Positions 610 to 30,562 of a DNA stretch of 31,073 nt are shown here, one piece after another (within the stretch, counting starts at the first letter, position 1; the number at the start of each line of letters is the position of its first letter). Position numbers and translations under genes: made by a program. The notes under the pieces were generated by a model. That model made no database searches. It was given only the letters and a program-made list of their open reading frames with translations, and was not told the DNA's origin. Where the stretch lies: IMG/VR virus record IMGVR_UViG_3300013233_000264, positions 1 to 31,073 of that record. One strand, given 5' to 3'. The stretch is from a virus.

Positions 610-794
610 GTGGAAAACAACTGAAATTAACGATTGATCGCGCCAAAGCAGCGAGGGCTGCGGTGATTGAGTGGCACGGCCTGGCGGGGCGATGCAGTGA
701 GAATGCTGCTCGCAGTGCTGATATTGCGGCATTCGCGGTTATTCGCGGCCAAACGGCGGCCAAGGCTGTTTTGGAGGCGGTGAGATGGCAATAA
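606..794 (+). CDS. Small hypothetical protein, 62 aa
   Basis: I do not recognise this protein. It starts at an ATG overlapping the ninG stop by 4 bases (ATGA), which argues for translational coupling and a real gene. The sequence is Ala-rich and probably helical, with basic residues near the N-terminus (LTIDRAKAARAAVIEW) and a central GRCSENAARSADIAAF segment. It has no membrane segment or clear motif. It is the last gene of the rightward operon; a new promoter follows at 808-836. Small accessory proteins are common downstream of ninG in lambdoid phages, but I cannot assign this one. Confidence 0.6.
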   Translation: MSGKQLKLTIDRAKAARAAVIEWHGLAGRCSENAARSADIAAFAVIRGQTAAKAVLEAVRWQ

Positions 795-880
795 TTTAAA
801 TAAACCCTTGCGCTAATGCGCCAACCGCACTATAATAAGCCCATACACACAAACACACACACAGAGGGTTAGGAAAATGA
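795..880 (+). promoter_or_regulatory. Promoter-leader cassette P1 (sigma70-like)
   Basis: TTGCGC (808-813), a 17-base spacer and TATAAT (831-836) form a near-consensus promoter, with the start expected near 843. A CA-rich leader (CATACACACAAACACAC) runs into AGAGGGTTAGGAAAATG, which supplies the ribosome site for the gene at 877. The whole block of about 85 bases, including the start codon and first codons, is nearly identical to a block at 26765-26850, and most of it to one at 28038-28102. The spacer carries a shared AATGCGCC segment flanked by TTG and CAA half-sites, so a common regulator may bind between the -35 and -10. Confidence 0.88.
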
Positions 881-1737
881 AAACAGGCGAGAAACTGGCA
901 GAGCATCTAAAGAGCATTGGTTTTTACGAGAATGTTTACGGCGTGTGGGTTCGCTCAATATACGGCAGCACTGAGCGCGCAGAGATTAGAGGTGCCGCAA
1001 ACGGTCAGGTGTTTGATATATTGTCCGGCGTGAGCGATTCGCTGGCGGCTAGATCACAAGGTGCCACCCCTGCCACCCCTGCTGTCTCAGATGAAAAAAT
1101 CAGTGATATTGAGATTGGGCGCAGAGAGCGCAGGATTGGCAATAGGATCACGCACGAGTTTTGGTGCGGTGCAGATCATGGCTGGTTGAGTTCGGTTGAT
1201 GCCGGAAAAATTAGCGGGATGTCTGGTCGCGTTGCAGCGCATCGGTGGGGGCGCGGATTGAAGGGCGAGGCATTAATTAAAAAAACGAATGATAATTTTA
1301 ACAGGGAATCAGTGATCGAGATTAATGGTGTCAAAAAAACGATGCGGGAGTGGGCGCGGATCAAGAGTGTCACATTATCGACGCTATCGAACAGGTATTG
1401 TCGCGGACTCAGGGGTGCTGATTTGTTTGAGTATCGACGGACAATCCGCAGGACACGCATTGATGAGAGCGGAAAATTCAGCGTGAACACCGGCAAAAAT
1501 TGGGGGCCGGTCGCGGATGTTGCGAAACGCGCCGGAGTAGATGAGCATGAGATTCTACGCAGAGCAAAATCAAAATGCCCGTCTCGTGCAATTGGCATGG
1601 AAAAAATGGCCTACGCTGAATTGATGGCGCTGAGAGACAGCAGGGAGCGTAAAAATAATCTCCCTGTGGGGTGGGGTGGGGTGCCTAAGCGCCACCAGCC
1701 GCCACGGAATCTAGCCCCAGCATGGGGTGGCAGCTAA
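877..1737 (+). CDS. Hypothetical protein with EWA-type helix-turn-helix segments, 286 aa
   Basis: No named family is certain. Residues about 149-185 (EINGVKKTMREWARIKSVTLSTLSNRY in part, then RGLRGADLF) match the pattern 'ING...EWA...G/S..T...R...G..G..L', a helix-turn-helix motif seen in many phage proteins and near homing endonucleases. A similar RWGRGLKGEAL segment lies at about 122-132, and a third HTH-like stretch (VADVAKRAGVDEHEILRRA) near 212. The protein is basic, so DNA binding is a reasonable inference. The ATG is preceded by AGAGGG/AGGA within promoter cassette P1. The gene stands alone and its stop overlaps the convergent tail-fibre stop. It shares its promoter type with two early leftward units, suggesting co-regulation. 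An accessory or regulatory role is likely but unproven. Confidence 0.75.
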   Translation: MKTGEKLAEHLKSIGFYENVYGVWVRSIYGSTERAEIRGAANGQVFDILSGVSDSLAARSQGATPATPAVSDEKISDIEIGRRERRIGNRITHEFWCGADHGWLSSVDAGKISGMSGRVAAHRWGRGLKGEALIKKTNDNFNRESVIEINGVKKTMREWARIKSVTLSTLSNRYCRGLRGADLFEYRRTIRRTRIDESGKFSVNTGKNWGPVADVAKRAGVDEHEILRRAKSKCPSRAIGMEKMAYAELMALRDSRERKNNLPVGWGGVPKRHQPPRNLAPAWGGS

Positions 1738-4700
1738 CCGCATCTATAAAAACAGGCTATCTGAGCAAGCCCATCATCATCGAAAGCGGCATCTTCACGG
1801 GCAATGGCAACGGTGTAGGATCGAACAACATCATCCAGATCGCCGTCACGAATCTGACGGCAACCCTTGCCGTGACGCTCTGCAACGCAAATCAGATCAC
1901 CAGCTAGAATCTCTCCGGCCTCATCGCACACGTTGATGAGGCCATCACCAAGCGCATTCACAAACGCCCTCTCCATGTCCATTGTGAACGTGAGTTGCTG
2001 ATTAGCGGTAAGTGAGTTTAGCGCAGGATCGGAGTTATACGGCAGATCGGAAAACGGCACCGATCCCGTGAATACCCCGATTGCATTCTGCTGGTATCGA
2101 CCAAATCCGCTGACCGCTATTGCGTCAGATACTCCATGAGTTGCGACAATTCGCAGCTCGCAGAGTATGTCGCCAATTTCGGGGTGAAGGTCGCCTGGAA
2201 TAATGGTTGGGTGAGCGCCGGTAAATGGGAGGTATGCTCCCGATTGGGCGTAGAATGCCGCACCTCCAACCGCGCCTGATGACCTCACCCCCACCCCGCC
2301 AGCACCAGCGCCATAGAAATCAGCGCCGTAGGATGCGCCAGACCCACTGACACCCGCAAACCCGCCGCTACCGGCAACACCGGTGCCGATGCCGCTTGAA
2401 GAGACCCCGCTGATTGCGTTATTTTGGCTTGAGTTTGCGTAGATAGCTGGATTTGCTGCACTGTCAGACACTGCATAGATCGAGTATCCCGACAACGTCG
2501 ATGCGTGAACCGCTGCGCCAGAATTTGAAGCAAACTCACCGCCCACACCGCCAGCAGATGCCCCGCCGTAGATCGCCGTTTTTGAGTCGATGCTGGTGGC
2601 TGAAACTATCGAGTAATCTGTTGCGCCTGGAGCCTGGCTCACTCCTGCTGTGAATCGAGTCGCGCCGCCAACGGATACGGTTAACTCGCCAGAAACGGGA
2701 TCAACAAACACCCTCTGACCCGTTGCCGCCACCCCAGTATCAGCGCCAAGCGCCACGTTTGTTCCGGTCACATCTGCTCCGGCCTGCGCGGGTTCTTTTG
2801 CTGCTAATGCGGGGGCTGTCCAGTCAGTGTCCCTGTTTGAATCACCGGACGGCAAAGAAAATGCGCTTGGCGATGCGGAATTGCCAACCTGCTTTTCCAG
2901 CATGATGCCGTCCCAGTAGTAAATATTTCCAGCAATATCGCTATCAATGCGAACTAGGCACTGACCGCTCGCTGATGATGTCAGGTCAACAGCACTAGAG
3001 ATTGTTTTCCACCCCGCAGAATCTGTTGTATCAGTCAGTCCTAAATGAAAAACGCCGTCACTCGTCTTGACATACATTTGCACCTGAGCTGTCGCTGGAG
3101 AAAAAGTAACAGCATCAATTGCCTTTACTCTAGCCGACACAATCCATTTTGAGTTTGGATCAATGTTGATATTGTAATCAACTGATGAAGTGGCGAGAAC
3201 AACCCAAGCATCACCTCCATTTGCATCAATACGAAGAGAGTTTGAGCCGTTGAAGAATCCAACCCCCGTTGCTTGTAGCGGTGCCGCATTGGCCGACCGC
3301 CCCATCACTGGGAGTCCGTTCGGAGATTGGAAAATCGAGTATTGCTGCGGGATCAGATTTACAGATGACCCTGCAATATTGTCGATTGTGACATCAGAGC
3401 CAGCAACAGCAGGCTTTAGTGAGTCCAGTGTTTGCCCGCTTGAATACGGTGTTTCTGCTGCCGTTTGAATTTTGCGGATTTTGATATAGTCAACATTCCC
3501 ATATCCGGCAGTGTTGTTGTAATTCAAGATCATAAGCGGGCGAATTTTCACGACATTTGGGTGGAATTTGCCGGGCGATTGAATCGTCCCCTGCCCACTA
3601 CTCCCCGTAGTTGCCCCGCGCCCTCTGGAATAACCAACAAACTCTTTCCAGCCCACTCCGGTAACATTTGCCGCGCAGTGGTAATAATGAGAGCTGGCAA
3701 TATTATCACCGGCATAGTTAACAAGGTTGTCGGCAGAATCATATCCAGCCCACCCAAAAAATACCGCCCCAACATTATCGAGATAAGCCCGCGCGGTCAT
3801 CTCAATCAAATCGGTGTCGTTTAGCGGGATAAATTCACTGTGAACCATCCAGACCAGACCGCTAATTCCCTGCAAAACCCCGCCACCCGAATAATTCCCA
3901 TAAAAATGTTTTAGGATTCCAACATTTGGAGCAAGAGGGAGCCATTGTGATAGCGAGCTGGGGTCTGGAAAAAACAGCTCCTTGTTTTTTGCGTTCGTAA
4001 CTGCGCCAGTATCAACACCGGAGACATTGCTGCGCCAATCTGCGCCAACAGTCGCACTGTCTGCCGGAATGCCTGCGGATGCCTTGTCTAGCTGCCCCCA
4101 CTGCACTGCCGCCGGAGCGCTGGCAAGTGTGTGTGCAATCTGGCTCCATGCGCTGTGGCCGTCAACGCCACGACTGCTGATCGCTCGAATACGAATATCG
4201 TAGGCCACACCCTGAGACGCGGTGAAGGCTGCGGCAGTGGATGCAGGATCGCTCATGAGTGAGACCGTATGCCACGAACTCACCGCACTCTGTTTGCTCT
4301 GAATCTCATAGCCTGAGCAGTGCGGATCTGTGATCTCCTGCCAGCCCATTTCAATCTGCTGAAGGGATTGCCCCTGATTCGCAGGCAATGCAGGCTCAAG
4401 AGTGCCGTCTGCTGCTGTGAATGCTGCTGGTGGTATTAATTTATGCACGGGGTTTGCGTCCTGTTGAGCGGTTTCTTGGGGTGGGATGTATTGGATCGCA
4501 ACGACAGAGCCGGTTCGATCCTCGCCAGACGTTCCACGCTGCTCTGAAACGGGGTTGTACGACGATCTGGAGTACTGCACTCCAAGGCCGCTTGGGATGT
4601 ATTCTGAAACTGAGGAGTGGACGGGCGACAATCCAGTAAATGCCTCTACGTTGCCAATGATCGTTGGCGGTGTGTGGTTGCCGTCGATGCAGATCAAAGC

Positions 4701-6980
4701 ACCGCCGGGGCAGCCACCACCACCCGTGCCGGGGTGCAGGTTTTTATCTCCGGTGAACAAAAAATTGGGGATAGCAGCATCATGGCCGGACGTGATGATT
4801 TTGCCGTTTGCGCCGAAAGCAAGCCCACGGCAAATGATCTCAATCCCGCCGCCACCGTGACCGCCTAGACCGCCGTAAGCGGTTGATGTCACGCCAGAAT
4901 AGTTATCAGTGTGCTCTGCCTTTTGCCCAGCAGCACCGCGACTGCCGGACAGGTCGTCAGGCAGCCCGGCCACACCATCGCCATTATTTTTGATCGGGAA
5001 GAAGTCGATCTCGTTTTTGTTTTGCGTGGCATATTGCGGAAGTTGCAGGATTCGATCCTCTGTTTTAGTCCCAAACAGATCGCGTTGAGTAACAGTGAGG
5101 CCTCCCCCACCCATGCTAGACCCGAGGATTCCAGACCCAAGCGACAGACCACCTTCGGCAGTGATTGGCGCGTTGATCGTCAAAAATCCTCTGATCCATA
5201 TTCTACAGTTGCGGCCAGCGATGTTGGTCGCGGCATCAATCGACAGATCACCTAGATGAGTGTATTCAGCAGCGCTCATCACCGATGCGCCAGCAATCGT
5301 GCCGCCGGTTGTGGCGTTGTTTGTGATCGGTATTTGAGTTGAGAGCAGTGTTTTGCTCTCATAGGCAAGATCGTTCAGCGCAGCAGTGCCGGTCGCCCGA
5401 CTGATTGCGCCCCCTCGGAGTGGAGCGCCGAACAGCCTAAGAGACACTTTGCCATTCTTAAAATCCACTGTTTTTTGATCGACTCGGAACGTCCTGTTCA
5501 GCGATTGACCGGTGTTTGCATCGAGCAGATTGCTGATTTTGAGGCGCACGTTTTGACCAGCATCAATTCCAGCAGCAGTGAGATTGCAGACGACAGAGGT
5601 GGTGATCGGTGGTGCGGCGTAGGACGAGCGGAGACCATCAAACACGGTTGCAATATCTGAATCCGTAGCAGACCCAGAATGCACGCCCTTCATTTTCCAC
5701 TCTATTTTTTTGCCGATGCCCTCACGCGCAATGGATGTTCCGTCAACGAATGTGGGGCCATCTTTGAGGAATTGTTTTAGGTCTGGAGACCACCCCCACT
5801 GCATGCTGAAAATGTTGGCCACTGCTGATTGGTTGTGATTGATTGCGCCAACACTGATGCAGTTCGATTCATCAATCACGAACGAGTAACCGGCACCGGG
5901 AGTAGGTACAGAGACAGATTGCAGGGTCAGAGAGCCGTTGTTGTTCACTCGGATCAGGGATGTGATCCATCGCAATATCTCGTTCTGATACCATGTTTTC
6001 GCCTTGGCTCTGCCGATGTCCTCAAACCTGAGAACGGTTCCAGAATCGTCGGCAGTGTTCCAGTGCGGTGAGTTTTCAAACGATGTGATGTCGATGTTGG
6101 CCGGATCAATCCCCACTCCCCAATGACTCGGCATTGCGTGCCCGCTATAAAATTTGCCCTGGAGTGTTTCAAGCAGGATTTTAGGCGCTGCGCCCTCGCG
6201 GTAGATGTATTCCGTGATGATTGGTTGTCGGTTGGCCTGTGCTGCTGGATCGGTGTCGTGCGGAATTGCACGGGTGCCGAAAACGCCGCGCTCGATGACT
6301 GCCAGAGATGGGCCATCGGTTGCGTGAGTGAAAATGCCGTTGTGGGCAATGATCTCAAATCCGTTTTTGGTGCCAATTTTGGCAAGGCCGTAGGTTTCAA
6401 GCGGTCGGTAGCTGTGGCCAGCGTCGTGATACGTTGTTGCGAATGTGTCCGTTGTTAAAATCGGAATGTGTGATTGCGCTTCGGTTACTGTTTTTGACAG
6501 ATTGCCTTTGTCCGGATCGAAAATATCAACATTGGATTGGAGTTGAATATCACGAGAGTTGAACGTGTAAACGCCTGAATTATAGACTACGTTGCCGTCG
6601 ATTCTGAACGAGTTGACCAGATGATAATCAGCGAATGCCATACCAGCAGCACCCGCCCACTCCTGAATTCTCTGGCCACGCAACCCCTTATTTGCTGCGC
6701 GTTTGTCGGCCAGTAGTTGCGAGATTTGGCCATTGATGTCAACGATTTTGACCGACCCGCCGCCGATAGTGAACTCCCCCTTGAGGATGTCGGCGCGTGC
6801 GGATTCGCTGGATCCGGATTTAATCACGCCCTGAATCACCACTGCGCCTGATGGTGCTACGCCGTCATGGTGCGAGGTCAAATAGACAACATCCGTGTTC
6901 GCAGCGTCGAATGAAATGGCGATTGTGATTCGATAGTCAATTTTTGACTGATTGATTTTGCCCTGAAAAATTGGGTTCAT
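1734..6980 (-). CDS. Tail tip / host-recognition protein, 1748 aa
   Basis: This is the last gene of the late operon and the largest in the genome. By position after the tape measure gene it forms the distal tail. Residues about 1-515 resemble the hub region of central tail-tip proteins. About 515-845 is Gly-rich and beta-repetitive (GGHGGGG, GTGGGGCPGG). About 848-953 is a fibronectin type III domain (WQEITDPHCSGYEIQS, YDIRIRAISSRG). Two segments at about 1000-1170 and 1210-1365 look like jelly-roll carbohydrate-binding modules. About 1470-1580 is a beta-helix-like Gly/Ala/Ser repeat. The last 150 residues form a C-terminal fibre domain ending CFYRCG, with the common pattern INVCDEAGEILAGDLICV. 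Central hub plus fibre on one chain suggests it both closes the tail and binds the cell surface. Start ATG at 6980 has only a weak GGAT site. Confidence 0.85.
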   Translation of the reverse strand: MNPIFQGKINQSKIDYRITIAISFDAANTDVVYLTSHHDGVAPSGAVVIQGVIKSGSSESARADILKGEFTIGGGSVKIVDINGQISQLLADKRAANKGLRGQRIQEWAGAAGMAFADYHLVNSFRIDGNVVYNSGVYTFNSRDIQLQSNVDIFDPDKGNLSKTVTEAQSHIPILTTDTFATTYHDAGHSYRPLETYGLAKIGTKNGFEIIAHNGIFTHATDGPSLAVIERGVFGTRAIPHDTDPAAQANRQPIITEYIYREGAAPKILLETLQGKFYSGHAMPSHWGVGIDPANIDITSFENSPHWNTADDSGTVLRFEDIGRAKAKTWYQNEILRWITSLIRVNNNGSLTLQSVSVPTPGAGYSFVIDESNCISVGAINHNQSAVANIFSMQWGWSPDLKQFLKDGPTFVDGTSIAREGIGKKIEWKMKGVHSGSATDSDIATVFDGLRSSYAAPPITTSVVCNLTAAGIDAGQNVRLKISNLLDANTGQSLNRTFRVDQKTVDFKNGKVSLRLFGAPLRGGAISRATGTAALNDLAYESKTLLSTQIPITNNATTGGTIAGASVMSAAEYTHLGDLSIDAATNIAGRNCRIWIRGFLTINAPITAEGGLSLGSGILGSSMGGGGLTVTQRDLFGTKTEDRILQLPQYATQNKNEIDFFPIKNNGDGVAGLPDDLSGSRGAAGQKAEHTDNYSGVTSTAYGGLGGHGGGGIEIICRGLAFGANGKIITSGHDAAIPNFLFTGDKNLHPGTGGGGCPGGALICIDGNHTPPTIIGNVEAFTGLSPVHSSVSEYIPSGLGVQYSRSSYNPVSEQRGTSGEDRTGSVVAIQYIPPQETAQQDANPVHKLIPPAAFTAADGTLEPALPANQGQSLQQIEMGWQEITDPHCSGYEIQSKQSAVSSWHTVSLMSDPASTAAAFTASQGVAYDIRIRAISSRGVDGHSAWSQIAHTLASAPAAVQWGQLDKASAGIPADSATVGADWRSNVSGVDTGAVTNAKNKELFFPDPSSLSQWLPLAPNVGILKHFYGNYSGGGVLQGISGLVWMVHSEFIPLNDTDLIEMTARAYLDNVGAVFFGWAGYDSADNLVNYAGDNIASSHYYHCAANVTGVGWKEFVGYSRGRGATTGSSGQGTIQSPGKFHPNVVKIRPLMILNYNNTAGYGNVDYIKIRKIQTAAETPYSSGQTLDSLKPAVAGSDVTIDNIAGSSVNLIPQQYSIFQSPNGLPVMGRSANAAPLQATGVGFFNGSNSLRIDANGGDAWVVLATSSVDYNINIDPNSKWIVSARVKAIDAVTFSPATAQVQMYVKTSDGVFHLGLTDTTDSAGWKTISSAVDLTSSASGQCLVRIDSDIAGNIYYWDGIMLEKQVGNSASPSAFSLPSGDSNRDTDWTAPALAAKEPAQAGADVTGTNVALGADTGVAATGQRVFVDPVSGELTVSVGGATRFTAGVSQAPGATDYSIVSATSIDSKTAIYGGASAGGVGGEFASNSGAAVHASTLSGYSIYAVSDSAANPAIYANSSQNNAISGVSSSGIGTGVAGSGGFAGVSGSGASYGADFYGAGAGGVGVRSSGAVGGAAFYAQSGAYLPFTGAHPTIIPGDLHPEIGDILCELRIVATHGVSDAIAVSGFGRYQQNAIGVFTGSVPFSDLPYNSDPALNSLTANQQLTFTMDMERAFVNALGDGLINVCDEAGEILAGDLICVAERHGKGCRQIRDGDLDDVVRSYTVAIAREDAAFDDDGLAQIACFYRCG

Positions 6981-7384: not shown

Positions 7385-10317
7385 GCTGAGAGCGCCGCTG
7401 CTTGTTCAGTGCCTGGACCAAACAGGATAGCCCCGTTGTCGAGCTGCTCAACAAGGTGATCTGTTAAATTTTGCATGGTTTCCGGTGATACTCCGTGAAA
7501 ATCCCCAATAAATTGGATGGTTGTTGGCTGTTTTTGCTGGGTCTGTTGCGGTTGTTGTGACTGGGACAATCCGGCACCAGAGAACCCGCCACCACCTCCA
7601 CTGCTGCTGCCCACAGACACCGCCCCACCACCGCCAGAACTCGAAACTCCACCGCCAAAACTTTGCTTCTGGATGTTTGATATCTGCTTTGTTGTTGCGA
7701 GTAATGACGCAGCGGCGAACGCTCCGCCGAGGATGGGGCCGCCCACTTTCGCACCGGCAGCGAATGACGAAACAGCAGCCTCACCACCTTTGATTGCAGC
7801 GGTTGCAATTGCGGCTTTTTTGCCTATTTCAAACTCTCTTTTTGACCCACCTGCCATTGCTTGCTGGATGTTGCCAAGAATGCCGGTGGCTATATTTGCC
7901 CGAGACTGCCACCCCTGCATCGTTATGTTGTGCATTGCTTTCTGGTGGTCTGACTCGATGCCCTCTAGCAGAGTGTTTCGCTCCTGCGCCGTGATCTGCT
8001 CAGAGACAAAAGCGGCCTCAATCAGCATTGATTTCTCTGTCAGTGATTCATTTAGAATCTCTAGCTCAGTAGCGTTTTTTGCTCTGATCTGTTCGACACC
8101 AGCAAGCGCCTGATCTGCCGTCACTCCAAATTCATTCTGAACCTGCAAATCCAGTTTTTCAGCACGAAAATCTGCTGCCAACTGCGCTTTGGTCTGCTGG
8201 TATTCACTGATCGAAATAACATCAGCGGATCGCGCATCGTCGGCAATCTGTTGCAGCTCCACGTAATGCGACGAAACAGCCGCAGCCTCTGCATCCAATC
8301 CAGACCTGATCTCTGTCACACGCTGAGCCAAATCATCGCGGCTCATGCCGTACTGCGCGTTGAATTGGATCTCTTGCAGCTTAACTCTATGATCCGCTGT
8401 CAGGCGCTCTGTATCGGCGTTATACGATGCGATGGAGATGACTTTGTTGCTAAATGCAGTATCAACAACGCCGCTCAGTTTGGCATAGTGAGCGTTTTCG
8501 GCTTCGATCTCAGAAGCGTGCGCTTTCGTGATTAGTTTTTGATATTCCTTGAGGGACTTTGCCGCCTCTTTTCGGTCAATTGTTGGCGCTGAATCTGGAG
8601 CTTTAAACTGGAATTGAGCCGTTCTATCTGCTGGCCCGGCCGCTTTCTTTGCTGCTTTCTCAATTTTATCGAACGAACGCACCATTTGATCGAGATTATT
8701 TAGACCCAAATCAGTTTGGCCGATCTCAGTCAGGTATTTTTTGATTGAGTCTGAGCTATTCAGAACAGTTGTGGTGACACCCTGAAACGTGAACTCAACA
8801 TCACTGCCAACAGTTTTTGATTTAACGCCGAACTCATTCAGGGCATCAAATGACCCGCCAGCCGCGCTACCGATGGCCTCCGCCATTGCTGCCGCCTGAG
8901 CCAGACTGCCGGTTACACCGCCAAAATCAGGCGTTTTCACAGTGAATGCGTTGAGCAGATAGCTCTTGATTGACTCCGCATCGTTGGCGATTGTTTTTGT
9001 TACGCCGCCAAACCGAACCTCAAGTAAATCCCCCTGCTCTTTGATTCTGACACCCATGCCAGCTATGGCATCAAACGACCCAGTGGCCGCATCGGTGATA
9101 GCTGAAATAGCGGTGATGGTTTGTGATTTTTTGTCGAACTCAGAAAGCGCCGCATCTCTCTGTGCGAGAATTGAAGCAACAGAGTCAGTGTAGGCCGAAT
9201 CAATGTTTTTCAACTCTGAATCGAGACTGCTGTTTGAATCGCTCCAGAATTTAAGGCTGTTGGCAATGTCATCACCATAAGCTGCCGCTTTTGAGACGAA
9301 ATTTGCAACTTCAACTGTTGCCAACTGGATCGCGGCGTGGACATTTTCGGGGAACTCATTGAATGAGCGCGAGAGAATATCAACAACACCACCCTTCAGA
9401 TCATCGGCAGCACCAACACCTAGATTTTTCTCTATGATTCCAGATATTTCAGAAAATGCAGTATCAACCGCATCTGTGACGTAGGCGAATCTCGATAAAT
9501 TGGCATCAACAGAGGCTGCCAACTCGCCGCTCTGGAGCAGGTCGTTTAGCGATTGGATAGCATCGGTTGCGGCTGTGACTGAATCCTCTATCAAGCCGCC
9601 AGCATCACCGCTCCCGATGGTTCTGAATAGACCATCCCATGCCATCGACAAGTTGGCTATTTTGCCGTCCAGCGTATCCATGCGCTTGGCCATGCCGCCG
9701 CCAAAATTGTCTTGCCCCAATTTTATGAGGTAATCCTCAATCGCAGCAGCGTTGTTGCCAATCTCAGTCGTAACCCCCTTGAACCGCAGGGAAACACGAT
9801 CACCGTCAACGCTGGCTTTAATGCCGAACTCTTTCAGGCGCTCAAATTCGCCCGTGGTGGCGTCGGCAACCGCCTCCACCATATCCATCATTGATTTGCC
9901 AAGAGCTGCAGAGGTGTCGCCGTAGGAGCGCATGGCCTCCTCTGACGGATTGAGGCCGAGGTTGGTTAATTTTACAAATCCCTCAATCGACTGATCGAGA
10001 GTGTAGGGGGTCTCTTTTGCAAAATCATTCAGCGCCTCGAACGCAATTCGCGACCCCTCAAGGGAGCCTGTGGCTGTTTCGAGAGTTGCGCCAAATATTT
10101 GCGTTTCGCGGGTAACATCGGTGAGTTTTTTCAGTCCAGCAGCAGCAAGGCCAACACCGCCAACCGCCACGGCCAACGCAGCGAATGACCCGCCAAGGCT
10201 TTTATTTGCACGCTCAGTTGCCACGCCAGAGCGTGAAAATCGGCTCAGGCTGCTGGTTGCTGTCTCGACGTGACGAGAGTCAACGCGGATTACGAGCGAT
10301 GCAATGTCCTCAGCCAT
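7381..10317 (-). CDS. Tail tape measure protein, 978 aa
   Basis: The tape measure protein sets tail length and is ejected with the DNA. The evidence is its size, its place right after the chaperone frameshift pair, long helical regions and a hydrophobic stretch at residues 44-62. Residues 71-147 match the common tape-measure start region (ETPYTLDQSIEGFVKLTNLG). A module of about 55 residues (GEFERLKEFGI..., GVTT..., YL..) occurs three times, at about 148-201, 404-459 and 478-533. The C-terminus has a Gly/Ser-rich linker (about 870-905), a Gln-rich stretch and a small terminal domain. The start ATG at 10317 follows the frameshift product stop by 2 bases. Tail length should scale with this gene, roughly 150 nm by the usual 0.15 nm per residue rule. 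Confidence 0.93.
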   Translation of the reverse strand: MAEDIASLVIRVDSRHVETATSSLSRFSRSGVATERANKSLGGSFAALAVAVGGVGLAAAGLKKLTDVTRETQIFGATLETATGSLEGSRIAFEALNDFAKETPYTLDQSIEGFVKLTNLGLNPSEEAMRSYGDTSAALGKSMMDMVEAVADATTGEFERLKEFGIKASVDGDRVSLRFKGVTTEIGNNAAAIEDYLIKLGQDNFGGGMAKRMDTLDGKIANLSMAWDGLFRTIGSGDAGGLIEDSVTAATDAIQSLNDLLQSGELAASVDANLSRFAYVTDAVDTAFSEISGIIEKNLGVGAADDLKGGVVDILSRSFNEFPENVHAAIQLATVEVANFVSKAAAYGDDIANSLKFWSDSNSSLDSELKNIDSAYTDSVASILAQRDAALSEFDKKSQTITAISAITDAATGSFDAIAGMGVRIKEQGDLLEVRFGGVTKTIANDAESIKSYLLNAFTVKTPDFGGVTGSLAQAAAMAEAIGSAAGGSFDALNEFGVKSKTVGSDVEFTFQGVTTTVLNSSDSIKKYLTEIGQTDLGLNNLDQMVRSFDKIEKAAKKAAGPADRTAQFQFKAPDSAPTIDRKEAAKSLKEYQKLITKAHASEIEAENAHYAKLSGVVDTAFSNKVISIASYNADTERLTADHRVKLQEIQFNAQYGMSRDDLAQRVTEIRSGLDAEAAAVSSHYVELQQIADDARSADVISISEYQQTKAQLAADFRAEKLDLQVQNEFGVTADQALAGVEQIRAKNATELEILNESLTEKSMLIEAAFVSEQITAQERNTLLEGIESDHQKAMHNITMQGWQSRANIATGILGNIQQAMAGGSKREFEIGKKAAIATAAIKGGEAAVSSFAAGAKVGGPILGGAFAAASLLATTKQISNIQKQSFGGGVSSSGGGGAVSVGSSSGGGGGFSGAGLSQSQQPQQTQQKQPTTIQFIGDFHGVSPETMQNLTDHLVEQLDNGAILFGPGTEQAAALSA

Positions 10318-24826: not shown

Positions 24827-25431
24827 TCTCCTGCCCTGCACACGCAATCCATTTCATCAATGAAATTTGGCACATACAGATCCAAGGCCTTAAAATACTC
24901 TTCATCTGGTTCAATCTTTAGAATCAGAGGCTTAAAATCATCGTGATTCGACACAAAGAACCACCATTTCAAACCCGTAACCCACATGCTGAATTGAACC
25001 TGACCAAAATAGATCGTGGGCAATTTGCCAGCAACAAGGTATTCAAGATGAACAGCAGGCGAGGGTGATTTTATCTCGATCCCTCCAAGCTCACCATTCA
25101 GCTCGACAAGGCCGTCAGGACTGCAACCAACACGCTTATCATCGTCTTTGTAGATCAATCCCGTCTCATGCACCTCTGCATCAAGCATGAATTCAAACAC
25201 CTCTCTACCGCGATGCTCGACCTCATTGCCACGCTCCATCCATTTAGATTTAAAGCCCTCCTCGATTTTCCCAGTTATCCGCTCCGCTGCAAGTTTGAAA
25301 AGAAGCTTTTTCCAGCTTGCGGATTTTTTGCCCTTCGTCGTGACAGCCTGACCGATCACTGACGCACTCAACACGCCGAGTTTCGACCGTAGCCACACGT
25401 CCTCACCTTGTTCGTAGTGAGTGATGATCAT
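24823..25431 (-). CDS. exo: Lambda Exo-like (YqaJ) exonuclease, 202 aa
   Basis: This 5'-3' exonuclease resects double-strand ends for the annealing protein. Catalytic residues are visible: D106 in SPDG, E119 and K121 in GGIEIKSP, with an upstream KWMERGNEVEHRGREVFE segment holding the other Glu. Length is slightly below lambda Exo (226). It follows ERF with an ATGA overlap, the typical pairing of an annealing protein and its nuclease. Confidence 0.9.
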   Translation of the reverse strand: MIITHYEQGEDVWLRSKLGVLSASVIGQAVTTKGKKSASWKKLLFKLAAERITGKIEEGFKSKWMERGNEVEHRGREVFEFMLDAEVHETGLIYKDDDKRVGCSPDGLVELNGELGGIEIKSPSPAVHLEYLVAGKLPTIYFGQVQFSMWVTGLKWWFFVSNHDDFKPLILKIEPDEEYFKALDLYVPNFIDEMDCVCRAGE

Positions 25432-25988
25432 GATATTTTACTCTGTAGCATTGAAACGGCTCTGTCGAATATCTCAGAGTTAATTCCAGAAATCGTATCG
25501 GATTTTGCCCATTTCAAAAACAGACCTGTATCTGAGTTGGATTCCTTGATAAGGCGCTTCAATTGATCCGCTTGACTCGATGTTATTGTGTTTTTGCCAG
25601 CTCCATCACCAGCAGCATCAGAGTCAACCCCGTCATCAATCGCAAACATTGCACACAGAGCGTATTTTCTCGCATAGCTCGAAGCTGACCCAGTAACCTG
25701 AGCCGCATCCATTCCCTTTTTTTCCAGTGGCTCACGGGCAAACGCAGAAACCGAGTGGCTTTCATGTCCGCAGTGAATTGTCACTGTTGATTTAACGTAA
25801 ATACGATCCGAAACCTGAATAATATCATCGCTGATTGTCACAGAGCAGTCGCCCAAAACAAGTTTAAGCCCCTCAAAAATGTCTTCCGCACTTCTGTAGT
25901 TGTATTTTCCAAAACCATTGAATTTGGATTTTTTAGCAACCAGTTTTTTTTGTATTTCAGACAGTGCTGAAAATATAGAATCAGACAT
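25428..25988 (-). CDS. ERF family single-strand annealing protein, 186 aa
   Basis: ERF proteins anneal complementary strands and aid circularisation and recombination of phage DNA. The family core is visible: KLVAKKSKFNGFGKYNYRSA, EDIFEGLKLVL, and QVTGSASSYARKYALCAMFA followed by IDDGVDSDAA. I chose ATG 25988 because GGAGGG lies 7 bases upstream; an earlier in-frame codon extends into the previous gene. The C-terminal 45 residues form a small helical domain. It is paired with Exo downstream and precedes SSB. Confidence 0.9.
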   Translation of the reverse strand: MSDSIFSALSEIQKKLVAKKSKFNGFGKYNYRSAEDIFEGLKLVLGDCSVTISDDIIQVSDRIYVKSTVTIHCGHESHSVSAFAREPLEKKGMDAAQVTGSASSYARKYALCAMFAIDDGVDSDAAGDGAGKNTITSSQADQLKRLIKESNSDTGLFLKWAKSDTISGINSEIFDRAVSMLQSKIS

Positions 25989-26310
25989 TGCAAGCCCTCC
26001 GCAAAATATTTGAGTAAAATTCCAGCTTTTCAGCATCAAAGTAGCCGAAATCCTCGCGTTTTAGGCATTCCAGCAGATCAGAAATCCGGTTTGCGACCGT
26101 TTTAATAAACTCAAACCTAATCGCAGGCTCGCCAGCATCTGCGGGCGACATTGATCTAGCAGTTGATACTGAAACCAGCATCATCCCAAGTTTTTTAACA
26201 TCGGACACAACCCAATCATTCAGAGTTCGCAGAGGAACCCCTGTTATTCTACTTACCGATGCAGCAGACCCCGCGTGATGCGCGGAGCATAGTTCAGCTA
26301 GTGTTGTCAT
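25981..26310 (-). CDS. Hypothetical HTH-like protein, 109 aa
   Basis: The N-terminus has a helix-turn-helix-like stretch, SAASVSRITGVPLRTLNDWV (about 15-34), preceded by LAELCSAHH. The rest is helical and charged. The start has GGAG about 12 bases upstream and the end overlaps the ERF start by 8 bases. I do not recognise the family; DNA binding is inference. Confidence 0.65.
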   Translation of the reverse strand: MTTLAELCSAHHAGSAASVSRITGVPLRTLNDWVVSDVKKLGMMLVSVSTARSMSPADAGEPAIRFEFIKTVANRISDLLECLKREDFGYFDAEKLEFYSNILRRACNV

Positions 26311-26330: not shown

Positions 26331-26768
26331 TTAGAGATACAGATCCATTTCGTTGTCGCTCATTTCGACAATCCCGCAAGCAGTGCCGACAATTGCAGAG
26401 AAGTTGTCACCGAAAGACCCTTTTTCATAATCAAAGCATGTTCCGTCAGACTCAAGAAACCCTGCATCCATCCCCTGAATGCAGTGGGTCGTCCAATCCC
26501 TGCACGAGCTACATTGACTGCAGACAAAATTTGATTTGCTGCTGATCACGACACCAGCAGCATCAACATCATCAGACCATCCGTTTTTTTCAGACAAAGC
26601 CACTTGATCTGCTGTGCTAAAAACAACTTCAACAAAAGCAGGCTGTGAAATCAGAGCCTTATATTCTTTCCATGCTTGCTTCAGCGCAGAACTCAGTGAA
26701 AGCGCATCGTTTTTAACAAAGCCCCACGCCGTCGTCATGATCCATTTCATGTCGTTAATTGTTTTCAT
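26331..26768 (-). CDS. Hypothetical protein, 145 aa
   Basis: The product is the first gene after promoter cassette P2. Residues 1-40 (MKTINDMKWIMTTAWGFVKN, then SSALKQAWKEYK) resemble a short motif found at the start of several phage and plasmid proteins. A Cys cluster (VCSQCSSCRDWTTHC) near 82-96 may bind metal. The tail is acidic (MSDNEMDLYL). I chose ATG 26768 because the sequence before it is promoter and leader, which recurs upstream of two other genes. The function is unknown. Confidence 0.7.
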   Translation of the reverse strand: MKTINDMKWIMTTAWGFVKNDALSLSSALKQAWKEYKALISQPAFVEVVFSTADQVALSEKNGWSDDVDAAGVVISSKSNFVCSQCSSCRDWTTHCIQGMDAGFLESDGTCFDYEKGSFGDNFSAIVGTACGIVEMSDNEMDLYL

Positions 26769-26850
26769 TTTCCTAACCCTCTGTGTGTTTGTGTGTATGG
26801 GTCTATTATAGTGCGGTGGGCGCATTAGCGCAAGGGTTTATTTAAACTAT
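26765..26850 (-). promoter_or_regulatory. Promoter-leader cassette P2
   Basis: Leftward TTGCGC (complement of 26828-26833), 17 bases, TATAAT (complement of 26805-26810), then the CA-rich leader and AGAGGGTTAGGAAAATG. It is nearly identical to P1 over about 85 bases, including the first codons ATGAAAAC. It starts just after the DnaC-like gene and drives the 145-aa protein and probably ERF, Exo and SSB. Confidence 0.88.
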
Positions 26851-26852
26851 TT

Positions 26853-27536
26853 TCAAAAAACCGACTTGCCGCGCAACGATTCCCAACTAAACTCGATCAC
26901 CGACCGTCCAGAACAGCAGCGATCAAACGCACGATCACCTACAGCCACCCGTAATTTCCCGTGATCCAGATTCGTAATCAGAATGCAGGGCTTCATAGCT
27001 GCATCACGATCACCGATGATGCGCGTGATTATCCGGCTCTCGAACTCGCTGCCAGCCGTCACACCTATTTCGTCGATGATCAGCAAATCCGGCTCAAGGT
27101 ATTTCTCAATCACCGCCCCACCATTCGGTCTCAACGAATCAAACAACTCATCAGACGCAATCATTTTTGCAGATCGACCCGACACCACCGCTTTCCGTGC
27201 CATCCATCCAGCAATTGAGGATTTTCCTGTACCCACGCCACCTTTGAGTGTGCAGTGAATGCCGCGCTCAAAAATGGTATTCAGGTTTTCTCCCCACGCC
27301 GTGATTCGATCCATCACTGATTTCTGATCCGGTGTCTGTGATTCGAGAGTTGACGGAGACAGGCCATTGCAACGCTCTGGAATGCCGATGGCCGCCACCT
27401 GCTGTGCTGTCCATTGTTTCGCCCATTCGCGCCTGGCAGACTCGTTATGAGCCTCCATTTCGTCGATTGAGGCCGCGACAGTGCCGGTTGGCGCGTGTTG
27501 CGCCAATGCTTTGAGTGATTGATTGATGTCAGTCAT
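26853..27536 (-). CDS. DnaC-like helicase loader ATPase, 227 aa
   Basis: AAA+ ATPases of this type load the host replicative helicase at the phage origin, the job of lambda P. Walker A is GGVGTGKSS (99-107) and Walker B LLIIDE (151-156), followed by a likely sensor (ILITNLD) and an arginine-rich end (AFDRCCSGRSVIEF). I chose ATG 27536 (MTDINQSL), which overlaps the previous stop by a few bases. It pairs with the O-like initiator upstream. Confidence 0.88.
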   Translation of the reverse strand: MTDINQSLKALAQHAPTGTVAASIDEMEAHNESARREWAKQWTAQQVAAIGIPERCNGLSPSTLESQTPDQKSVMDRITAWGENLNTIFERGIHCTLKGGVGTGKSSIAGWMARKAVVSGRSAKMIASDELFDSLRPNGGAVIEKYLEPDLLIIDEIGVTAGSEFESRIITRIIGDRDAAMKPCILITNLDHGKLRVAVGDRAFDRCCSGRSVIEFSWESLRGKSVF

Positions 27537-27849
27537 CGTAACCAGCAGCCTCGATTGCATCCGCCCTCTGCTGCTCGAATATCTCAGCAGCGATTGGCGT
27601 TACAGCCTGCACCATAATCTCACGAATACCATCAATTGCCGCCAATTTTTCGGCATCGTCACCAGAGTTGACGGCCTCAAATAACAGCGCGTCAAATTTT
27701 GGTAACAGCTCGTCAGAGTCGGCTACCGACTCCATCACAGACTCATCACTGCCGCTCACCAATTCCTCGGCAATAGCCTCGATTGCCTCGTCGCGTGAAT
27801 CCAGTGAATCAGCAGCAGCGGCTGACAGTTGATTGCCGCTTGTTGTCAT
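27529..27849 (-). CDS. Small acidic protein, 106 aa
   Basis: The product is Ala/Glu/Asp-rich, with a helical core (AIDGIREIMVQAVTPIAAEI) and an acidic Ser-rich stretch (SGSDESVMESVADSDELL). The ATG at 27849 has GGAGG upstream and overlaps the preceding gene stop as ATGA. Its own stop overlaps the DnaC-like start. I do not recognise it; an acidic partner of the loader is possible. Confidence 0.65.
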   Translation of the reverse strand: MTTSGNQLSAAAADSLDSRDEAIEAIAEELVSGSDESVMESVADSDELLPKFDALLFEAVNSGDDAEKLAAIDGIREIMVQAVTPIAAEIFEQQRADAIEAAGYDD

Positions 27850-28037
27850 AAATCCTCCAAATCTTCTTGAGAAAATGAATTTGGATTCGGCGTGCGACAC
27901 AAATCCTCCTGGACCCTATCTCTCTCAGCAAGCGCGGCATCAAGATCGGCCTGAGCTTTTGCCAATCTGGTGTTGGCGGCGCTTAACGCCGCGCGCCTAT
28001 GTTGCCGAATTTTCAAAATAAACTCTCTGTCTGTCAT
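27846..28037 (-). CDS. Small coiled-coil protein, 63 aa
   Basis: The product is a single predicted coiled coil (LSAANTRLAKAQADLDAALA then ERDRVQEDL) with an acidic end (FSQEDLEDL). I chose ATG 28037 because it directly follows promoter cassette P3 and has GAGGCG upstream. The stop overlaps the next start as ATGA. The function is unknown; it is the first gene of the P3 unit that ends with the helicase loader. Confidence 0.65.
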   Translation of the reverse strand: MTDREFILKIRQHRRAALSAANTRLAKAQADLDAALAERDRVQEDLCRTPNPNSFSQEDLEDL

Positions 28038-28382: not shown

Positions 28383-29191
28383 CAGAAAGCGTCTCCAGGT
28401 CGTGGGGTTTGGTCGAACTCGTTGTGTACCACTTCATCCAATCCAGTGAAATTTGATGGCCTAGATTGCCTCGCCTTTGTGCCATTTAGTCCGCGATAGT
28501 TTCTGTACCACTCCACGTTGAATGCAATCCAGTTTCCCGCTTCCCAAACATCGAAGCAGTCTTGAATGTCGTGTCCAGCCTCCTTTGCTGCAACCAGTTC
28601 TTTACCTGATAGGTCCATTGCTCGTTGAGTCATGCGTCCGCCTTTTTTCCGCCTGTTCTGCATAATCTCTTCCATCTGTTCGTCATCAGGCAGTGCAGGC
28701 CAACTGCTGTAATTTAGTTTCTTCCAAGCCAGATTTTTGGGTTTTGGCGCTTGCGCCTTCTTTTTCTCTTCTGGTTTAGTTATATCTTCTATTTTAGTAA
28801 TATCTTCTCCTTTAATATCGGTATCGGTTTCCACACCTGTGGGTTTCCGTATGTGTGGGTTTCTGCAACTGTGGTCTTCGCTATCCGTGGTGTGTGGCAG
28901 TGCATAGATGTGGTAATCGCTACCGATAAACTGCCCCGCATCGTTCTTGCGGCGCTTTACTTGGTACAGGCCGGACTCTCTCAGCTCTCGCATTGCAGAC
29001 AAGTATCGTGTGCGACCGATTGAAAAGTGGCTGCGGATTTGCGTCTCTCTGAATACCCAATTCTCAGGCAGGCTTTGCAGGTAGACCCATATTGCCAGCG
29101 CCTCTGGATTTTTAATCGACTGAATAACGTCACGCGAATTCATAACGAATGGGATGCCAGCTTGGTGCTTAACCAGTTTGTCTATGGCCAT
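28382..29191 (-). CDS. O-like replication initiator, 269 aa
   Basis: The N-terminal 90 residues form a winged-helix replication domain (IPFVMNSRDVIQSIKNPEAL, ETQIRSHFSIGRTRYLSAMR, ELRESGLYQVKRR), as in lambda O and related initiators. A low-complexity middle (about 100-150) coincides with five 16-bp DNA iterons and an AT-rich stretch. The C-terminal half probably binds the loader. I chose ATG 29191, with GGAAG about 9 bases upstream; a TTG two codons earlier is less likely. It binds the origin and recruits the DnaC-like loader and host helicase. Confidence 0.85.
   Translation of the reverse strand: MAIDKLVKHQAGIPFVMNSRDVIQSIKNPEALAIWVYLQSLPENWVFRETQIRSHFSIGRTRYLSAMRELRESGLYQVKRRKNDAGQFIGSDYHIYALPHTTDSEDHSCRNPHIRKPTGVETDTDIKGEDITKIEDITKPEEKKKAQAPKPKNLAWKKLNYSSWPALPDDEQMEEIMQNRRKKGGRMTQRAMDLSGKELVAAKEAGHDIQDCFDVWEAGNWIAFNVEWYRNYRGLNGTKARQSRPSNFTGLDEVVHNEFDQTPRPGDAF
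28757..28823. other. AT-rich stretch beside the iterons (likely unwinding element)
   Basis: An AT-rich run within the O-like gene contains two ATATCTTCT repeats. It lies directly next to the iterons, as the unwinding element does in lambda ori. Confidence 0.6.
28824..28903. repeat. Five 16-bp iterons: candidate replication origin
   Basis: Units begin at 28824, 28840, 28856, 28872 and 28888, each exactly 16 bases apart. The best two share GTGGGTTTCYG; the others are degenerate (GGTTTCC, GTGGTCTTCG, GTGGTGTG). Because 16 is not a multiple of 3, the pattern is not a by-product of protein repeats. Position inside the O-like gene matches lambda ori. Confidence 0.78.
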
Positions 29192-29218
29192 TGTCAAAAC
29201 TTCCTTTGCTGCTATAAT
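29191..29218 (+). promoter_or_regulatory. Rightward promoter at the O-like gene start
   Basis: TTGTCA (29191-29196), 16 bases, TATAAT (29213-29218). It points away from the O-like gene, against the early transcript, and meets a hairpin at 29239-29259. The layout resembles lambda's OOP promoter. Confidence 0.6.
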
Positions 29219-29233
29219 GCAGCGTGTGTTTGA

Positions 29234-29341
29234 TTATTTGGCCGCCCGTTTAGCGGCCATTTTGTTGTTGCTGATCCCGTGTTTTTTCTGGATCATTTTT
29301 AGATTTGCTGGTGTGTAGCCCAGCTCGTAGTTGTTTTTCAT
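29234..29341 (-). CDS. 35-aa protein similar to the Cro-like N-terminus
   Basis: The frame starts at ATG 29341 (GAGG 7 bases upstream) and reads MKNNYELGYTPANLKMIQKK then HGISNNKMAAKRAAK. It aligns with residues 19-46 of the Cro-like protein (LGYTP.NL......GI....A.K) but stops before the recognition helix would be complete. It lies between the Rha-type and O-like genes. It may be a relic or a small regulator. Confidence 0.55.
   Translation of the reverse strand: MKNNYELGYTPANLKMIQKKHGISNNKMAAKRAAK
29239..29263. terminator. Hairpin overlapping the end of the 35-aa gene
   Basis: TGGCCGC, 7-base loop, GCGGCCA, followed rightward by TTTTGTT. It would end a short rightward RNA from the promoter at 29191-29218 about 40 bases long. 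The leftward side lacks a T run. Confidence 0.5.
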
Positions 29342-29358
29342 TGTCATTCCTCGGATTG

Positions 29359-29386
29359 TTGGTATACTGCGCGGAGTTGCTATATT
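29359..29386 (+). promoter_or_regulatory. Possible rightward extended -10 promoter
   Basis: TTGGTA, 16 bases, TATATT with TG two bases before (TGCTATATT). The -10 lies in the loop of the inverted repeat at 29370-29398. A transcript would be about 45 bases and end at the terminator at 29410-29437. Speculative. Confidence 0.4.
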
Positions 29387-29398
29387 TTCCTCTCCGCG
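29370..29398. repeat. Inverted repeat CGCGGAG / CTCCGCG
   Basis: A perfect 7-bp inverted repeat (29370-29376 and 29392-29398) with a 15-base spacer. It may be an operator or form a hairpin in leftward mRNA between the Rha-type and 35-aa genes. Confidence 0.7.
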
Positions 29399-29409
29399 AC
29401 TGTGTGTTT

Positions 29410-29437
29410 TAGCTCACTCCAAGTGAGCTATTTTTTT
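29410..29437 (+). terminator. Strong rightward Rho-independent terminator
   Basis: TAGCTCACT, loop CCA, AGTGAGCTA and then TTTTTTT: a 9-bp perfect stem with a T7 tail. It is oriented rightward, yet both flanking genes are leftward. The left half of the T run and stem overlap the last codons and stop of the Rha-type gene. It implies a short rightward RNA. Confidence 0.85.
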
Positions 29438-30213
29438 GCCTGCGATTCGATCAACTCCAACAGCTCTGGGAATTTATCGACGTAGTAGCGCGGATGGGTT
29501 TGGTTTGGGTTTTGAGGGCTGGTTTCGTTTCGGCCAAATCGCAACCCTGAATCAGTCAGTGATTTAAACCGCTTCACACCCCCTCGTGCCGCTCTGCGCG
29601 ATAACTCGGTTAATACGCCTCGTTGTATCAATATCCGGTTTGCGGCCTGTGCAGACAATGTAGAGCCGTTTTCGCGCAGCAGATCACCAATGGCTCTTGT
29701 CAAGCCCTCATGCTCCGAATAATCGGGGAGCAGGTTTGTATTGAGTCCGTGATTTTTGGCCACCGTGCCGAGCATTCGGATTTTGCTGGTTTGGCTCATT
29801 CGCAACATGTCGGCGGCAGCATTGGCGAACATCAGCTCACTCTCAAGGGGCGCTGCTGGTGGCGCGGCAATCTGTTGATCTTGCTCTAATTCGTCGAGTC
29901 GAATTGAAACACGGTATCGAAGCGGTGCGCTCCACCCCATCGCTAGTGTCATTGTCGCGTGTTTGTCGAGAACGTACATTTTACGATGGCGATTATCGGC
30001 GCTGGTGTAGATTGATTCGGTTACCGGAGCACAACCCAAATGTGGGCTATGCTCTAATTTTGGTGACGAACTCAAATTTGAGTTGTGCTCAATCAGCTCA
30101 GGTATTGCGCGAATCATTTTCTCAATGTCTCGCAGAACATTGGCGTGGCGTTTGCCGGAGAATTCCGCTAGTTCGAGACTGGTCATGCTGATTACTCTCT
30201 GTAGTGCGCTCAT
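29428..30213 (-). CDS. Rha-type phage regulatory protein, 261 aa
   Basis: The N-terminal region matches the Rha family (MTSLELAEFSGKRHANVLRD followed by IEKMI, then KMYVLDKHATMTLAMGW). The C-terminal half resembles a DNA-binding domain common in antirepressors (TLSAQAANRILIQRGVLTEL, then GLRFGRNETSPQNPNQTHPR and DKFPELLELI). It probably modulates early regulation. The start overlaps the Cro-like stop as ATGA, with GAGGGG upstream. Confidence 0.82.
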   Translation of the reverse strand: MSALQRVISMTSLELAEFSGKRHANVLRDIEKMIRAIPELIEHNSNLSSSPKLEHSPHLGCAPVTESIYTSADNRHRKMYVLDKHATMTLAMGWSAPLRYRVSIRLDELEQDQQIAAPPAAPLESELMFANAAADMLRMSQTSKIRMLGTVAKNHGLNTNLLPDYSEHEGLTRAIGDLLRENGSTLSAQAANRILIQRGVLTELSRRAARGGVKRFKSLTDSGLRFGRNETSPQNPNQTHPRYYVDKFPELLELIESQAKK

Positions 30214-30476
30214 TTCAATTTCCCCTCTGTTAATTCAATTCGCATCTGTAAGAATTTCTGCCATTTTTCGGCGCTCATCGTGCAGTGCAGTGCAGTGCCA
30301 ATCGGCGCTCTCCATGCCGTCACGGCGTTGGGAGCAACCCCTGTTTTTTTGGCCACCATCCTGCGGGTGATACCTAGCTCGGTCATTAGGATGTTAAGGT
30401 TTTTTGGCGTGTAACCAAGATCAAGTTTTTTGACAGCAGACAGAGCAGACACTGTTGCCCATGTTTTTCCCACCAT
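30210..30476 (-). CDS. Cro-like HTH repressor, 88 aa
   Basis: The product has a helix-turn-helix, LGITRRMVAKKTGVAPNAVT, at about 34-53 followed by AWRAPIG, in the style of short Cro/XRE regulators. It opens the leftward early operon, the position of cro. The ATG has GGAG about 8 bases upstream. It lies next to divergent promoters, which are its likely targets. No longer CI-type gene is visible nearby. Confidence 0.78.
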   Translation of the reverse strand: MVGKTWATVSALSAVKKLDLGYTPKNLNILMTELGITRRMVAKKTGVAPNAVTAWRAPIGTALHCTMSAEKWQKFLQMRIELTEGKLK

Positions 30477-30495: not shown

Positions 30496-30548
30496 TTGAT
30501 GTTTCGGTGAGGTCATTGTATTATAGTTACTCAATTAACGCAAACACA
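30496..30548. promoter_or_regulatory. Divergent overlapping promoters
   Basis: Rightward: TTGATG (30496-30501), 17 bases, TATTAT (30519-30524), for the DUF6948-like operon. Leftward: TGTGTT (complement 30543-30548), 17 bases, TATAAT (complement 30520-30525), for the Cro-like operon. The -10 elements overlap, so the two directions compete and a regulator bound here would affect both. Confidence 0.65.
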
Positions 30549-30562
30549 TAGAGAGCGAGATT

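Follow-up and report, generated by a model that had tools for sequence, protein, structure and literature searches.

Three copies of a promoter-leader cassette in a small phage genome, most likely duplicated during module shuffling

Three blocks of intergenic DNA in the viral record IMGVR_UViG_3300013233_000264 (31,073 nucleotides, analysed over its whole length and hereafter called the window) are similar to one another far beyond chance, and each carries the recognizable parts of a promoter, a leader, and a ribosome site. We propose, with a probability of roughly 0.7, that these blocks are paralogues derived from a single intergenic expression cassette by duplication within the phage lineage, and that they would provide the genes behind them with a host-RNA-polymerase promoter of their own and efficient initiation of translation. 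The copying most likely occurred within the genome during module shuffling. The three copies, all at gene junctions, are as follows:

790..885, forward strand: cassette P1, with an A+T-rich tract, the -35 hexamer TTGCGC (808-813), TATAAT (831-836), a CA-rich leader, the SD region, and ATGAAAACA (877-885)
26760..26851, reverse strand: cassette P2, with its elements in the same order as P1, upstream of the ORF at 26331-26768; the closest copy to P1
28035..28112, reverse strand: cassette P3, with a core from -10 to SD identical to that of P2 and diverged flanks, upstream of the ORF at 27846-28037

Self-comparison of the window placed the blocks within a few bases of where the original prediction had put them, with P1 and P2 matching at 91.7% over 96 bp (E 7e-32), P2 and P3 at 94.9% over 59 bp (E 7e-21), and P1 and P3 at 92.3% over 52 bp. 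The alignment of P1 with P2 includes a 4-nt indel, where P1 has two more CA units. A 20-mer spanning the -10 is present three times in the window at up to 3 mismatches and in none of 100 shuffles, and a scan of the window with a profile of the whole cassette yielded no further weak copies above shuffles.

The edges of the match are informative about what was copied. Between P1 and P2, the 18 bp upstream of the -35 differ at a single position and codons 1-3 are alike, two agreements that had been noticed from the sequence beforehand and that hold. Beyond codon 3, 20 of 30 positions mismatch, which is the chance level, and upstream the match gives out close to the stop codon of the gene before the cassette. 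An identity that begins where the preceding gene ends, extends to codon 3, and drops to chance beyond it argues for a copied unit rather than convergence, and these bounds suggest that the unit is an intergenic expression cassette. The recent duplication that had been offered as one possible explanation is thus well supported by sharp edges at gene boundaries, chance similarity outside them, unrelated downstream genes, and the absence of the cassette from the relatives found.

Conservation between P2 and P3 is less even. These copies are identical over the 30 nt from -10 to SD and differ at 3/59 positions in the -35-to-SD part, against 7/18 in the 18 bp upstream of the -35, and at 5/6 positions between SD and ATG. 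Comparing the leader (0/30) with the upstream segment (7/18) gives a Fisher p of 4e-4, or 8e-6 once the SD spacer is pooled in, values that are indicative only because the segments were chosen after the alignment had been seen. This pattern could reflect constraint on the leader, or a core that alone was copied or gene-converted.

Reading the copies base by base confirmed that a weak -35 hexamer, a 17-nt spacer, TATAAT, a CA-rich leader, and a ribosome site are common to all three. The upstream A+T-rich tract (AATAATTTAAATAAACCC in P1, with one change in P2 and 6-7 in P3) resembles an UP element by its composition only. The -10 and its spacing are of sigma70 type in 3/3 cassettes, and the -35 (TTGCGC in P1 and P2, TTGCAC in P3) agrees with the consensus TTGACA at 3/6 positions; none of the three promoters was listed in a generic sigma70 promoter scan. 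The discriminator is AGACCC in P2 and P3 and AAGCCC in P1, followed by the leader ATACACACAAACACACAGAGGGTT, extended in P1 by the two CA units, and by a 6-nt stretch containing AGG or GAGG before the ATG. The best reading of each copy is a putative sigma70-type promoter with a weak -35, a perfect TATAAT, and a CA-rich leader with its ribosome-binding site, and the weak hexamer could mean that an activator is needed. On the coding strand, no terminator-like site was found between the O-like gene and P3 or before P1, and only a weak one precedes P2 on its strand. Since no strong terminator stands just before them, the cassettes look like internal promoters of longer early transcripts. On the forward strand at 29191-29430, two good promoter-like sites are each followed by a terminator-like hairpin (29239-29259 and 29410-29430), and short RNAs opposite the early left operon are possible there.

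The genes directly behind the copies are unrelated to one another:

877..1737, forward strand: P1 gene, 286 aa, with a weak HNH-family match; residues 73-283 match a 213-aa protein of the early-region relative G016 (introduced below) at 71% identity, and residues 1-72 form an extra N-terminus
26331..26768, reverse strand: first P2 gene, an ORFan, followed by 25981-26310, erf, an exonuclease, NinB/Orf, and SSB
27846..28037, reverse strand: first P3 gene, a small ORFan, followed by the 27529 ORF and a DnaC-like loader (26853-27560)

The original prediction had the cassettes driving an HTH protein, the recombination genes, and the helicase loader. The first of these was not recognized as such: searches of PHROGs and Pfam gave no confident HTH or DNA-binding domain for the 877 product, which instead showed a weak match to HNH-endonuclease PHROGs (4.5e-7, residues 137-201). 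It had no relative in the PDB, and its AlphaFold model (pLDDT 38) was unusable. An impression by eye of tandem HTH repeats in this protein found no support in self-BLAST, Pfam, or the model. For P2 and P3 the assignment stands in part, as the recombination genes and the DnaC-like loader do lie downstream, but two ORFans come first behind P2 and two small ORFs behind P3. A candidate fusion of Erf at its start codon was dropped, the likely start being at 25988.

Two relatives allow the surroundings of the cassettes to be compared. The nearest structural relative (G001, IMGVR_UViG_3300013233_000546), whose terminase is 88% and one of whose structural proteins is 94% identical, differs in its early region and lacks the cassette. 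An early-region relative (G016, IMGVR_UViG_3300013233_000436, 68.8 kb) matches the window at 91% DNA identity in erf-exo (24847-25973 against 4568-3433 of its locus L030), 87% in the start of the O-like gene, 72% in the Cro-like gene with the divergent promoter, and 75% in the 877 homologue. No cassette was found at up to 3 mismatches in the whole of this record, although the contig ends inside the O-like gene, so that the counterparts of the P2 and P3 positions may be out of view. The conservation in relatives that had been anticipated is not seen, as far as the records are visible, even in this phage with near-identical early genes. In the window, a short remnant of Cro-like sequence (MKNNYELGYTPANLKMIQKKHGISNNKMAAKRAAK) at 29239-29345 lies between the O-like gene and the Rha-type gene at 29428-30213, a place at which G016 has several tandem Cro-like paralogues (L030 401-1945); the Cro-like gene itself occupies 30210-30476.

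The neighbourhood of P1 has changed between the two phages. The 877 homologue of G016 begins near the equivalent of codon 73 and follows the divergent rightward leader immediately, no cassette intervening. The window has 1.6 kb between the early leader and the region of 877 homology, occupied by DUF6948, NinG, a 62-aa ORF, P1, and the 72 extra codons, an order that assumes the contig to be circular across its repeat-filled ends. The segment encoding these codons (877-1095) had no family match and no relative among the loci compared, and it looks like a gain made together with P1. G016 carries the erf-exo pair in its right arm, the window in its left arm, which indicates module shuffling and which we read as a recent module transfer. 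The early region has thus been reshuffled, and P1 adjoins a seam. Both contig ends (30936-31073 and 1-67) are filled by a hexamer microsatellite (GGGTAT/GGGTCT/GGGGAT) that immediately precedes the NinG gene. The record resembles a circular genome opened within this repeat, which may specify a Gly-rich N-terminus whose length varies.

Searches for the cassette elsewhere were negative, although records very near the window may have fallen outside them. Exact and gapped patterns had no match in viral contigs and genome contigs, blastn gave no match against phages and only four short matches against plasmids (E 3-9), and no relatives were found via the helicase loader and the O-like protein. Among 15 portal relatives, a 3-mismatch pattern matched once, in G009, a match attributed to chance because a reversed control pattern also matches once there. 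Repeats in G009 and in G001 were considered as cassettes and set aside, the former looking protein-coding and the latter not being promoter cassettes.

A hint of where the leader came from lies within the window itself:

30531..30555, forward strand: leader that follows the divergent early promoter facing rightward; of all sites in the window outside the cassettes, it resembles the cassette leader most closely (18/25)

The -10 and SD spacing at this site are the same as in the cassette leader, and across 486 kb of other loci the top score for the 25-nt leader (18/25) was shared by the orthologous early rightward leader of G016 and one unrelated site in L026. A match at the same spacing hints that the cassette leader is related, by descent or design, to the leader of the early rightward promoter. 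The A/C-rich site at 30531-30555 does not reach significance with the whole-cassette profile, as 71 of 200 shuffles score as high.

Beyond duplication, the original prediction had considered that the conservation might reflect a single regulator, for which the promoters offer one candidate target:

809..824, forward strand: candidate operator in P1, adjacent 8-bp direct repeats TGCGCTAA TGCGCCAA over the -35/spacer, with marginal statistics

Equivalents occur in P2 and P3, and a common regulator of the three promoters is possible. We nonetheless consider it unlikely that the cassettes form a true regulon in which a phage or host DNA-binding protein, potentially the 877 protein, reads TGCGCYAA-TGCGCMAM and switches the three genes together, the weak -35 hexamers making the promoters dependent on it. 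The repeat agrees at 7/8 in P1 and P3, a level reached by about 2% of shuffles, but falls to 6/8 in P2, and the motif was not found in the divergent region of the Cro-like protein itself. The sole long word that the promoters share with that region, on opposite strands, is ACTATAATA, which falls at their -10 region; a triple YGCRCYA motif was set aside as circular, having been derived from the same three copies. The lower divergence of the -35-to-SD part of P2 and P3 relative to the 18 bp upstream would fit selection by a regulator, yet such conservation is expected anyway in a copied piece. Similarly, the 877 product matches families of DNA-acting proteins, but it is the same protein that has no confident DNA-binding domain and no usable model, and G016 encodes its homologue without any cassette. 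More doubtful still is the fuller version of this idea, a portable 85-bp cassette regulon in which a phage regulator, perhaps the 877 protein, would bind the direct repeat in all three promoters and coordinate the replication and recombination genes of both arms. The absence of the cassette from G016 argues against a lineage-wide regulon and not against duplication.

A function of the leader as RNA, also raised in the original prediction, is poorly supported and appears very improbable. Such an element would fold in the 5' UTR by pairing GACCC with GGGUU, or bind a protein or RNA, and so control translation. The 30-nt identity of P2 and P3 would be in line with this, as would the GA-to-AG change in P1, which still pairs with UU. 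However, the only stem in the leader is a single 5-bp one that uses discriminator bases, with its 5' arm, GACCC, 2-6 nt after TATAAT and mostly absent from the canonical transcript; a leader hairpin is unlikely because this arm lies upstream of the expected start. No conserved stable fold emerged for the transcripts (folding z-scores -1.05, -1.81, and +0.41; no Rfam match for the leader), and P1 tolerates a 4-nt CA insertion. Least probable, in our view, is that the blocks are passive repeats, non-functional as promoters, made by homologous recombination or slippage and serving solely as recombination sites in the exchange of modules. Their location between genes of a reshuffled early region and the varying length of the CA microsatellite would suit such an origin, but every copy faces a gene start with TATAAT, the 17-bp spacer, and the ribosome site intact.

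Under the duplicated-cassette reading, one unit made up of an A+T-rich tract, a weak -35, a 17-bp spacer, a consensus -10, an unstructured CA-rich leader, and a ribosome site would have been duplicated in the lineage, each copy supplying the gene or genes that follow with a promoter for the host RNA polymerase and with efficient initiation of translation. Genes remote from the divergent early promoters, namely the 877 gene in the right arm and, in the left arm, those for recombination and the DnaC loader, may in this way have been boosted when modules were inserted or moved. The cassette leader may itself derive from the divergent early leader.

The functionally closest arrangements on record come from two other groups of phages. 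The promoter early stem-loop cassettes (PeSLs) of T4-type phages (Arbiol et al. 2010, Comeau et al. 2014, via PMC4503421) are, as described in that source, short repeated promoter cassettes scattered between genes and tied to module shuffling; repeated copies at gene or module junctions are found here too, with three in the early arms and shuffling relative to G016. A PeSL as defined there consists of an early promoter and a stem-loop terminator, whereas no terminator-like stem-loop lies inside the window cassettes, which number 3 in a 31-kb phage. Cluster K mycobacteriophages carry Start-Associated Sequences (SAS/ESAS), of which the 13-bp GGGATAGGAGCCC lies 3-7 bp before start codons in 11-19 copies and is common to the whole cluster (PMC3203893). 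Like these, the window repeats lie just upstream of the starts of unrelated non-structural genes and cover the ribosome site; unlike them, they span ~75-95 bp including a promoter, number three, and are not found in relatives. As the cassettes have no terminator stem-loop, and as the SAS sequence was absent from all three when read base by base, the cassette is a member of neither class. Near-identical intergenic stretches of ~20-36 nt also precede gene starts in two or three copies per contig in unrelated phage contigs (L035 at 4567-4602, 5218-5240, and 8020-8040; L036/L037, with L036 sites at 5126-5155 and 9450-9480). They are shorter than the window cassette and unrelated to it in sequence, and indicate that repeats of this kind are not rare.

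The triplicated cassette is thus ordinary in kind and leaves the known picture of phage regulation unchanged. It does provide a compact case in which a whole promoter-leader-ribosome-binding-site unit appears to have been copied within a small phage, and one that can be compared with G016, a relative sharing some of its modules but not the cassette. As such, it illustrates how phages can keep the genes of moved modules expressed by reusing expression signals.
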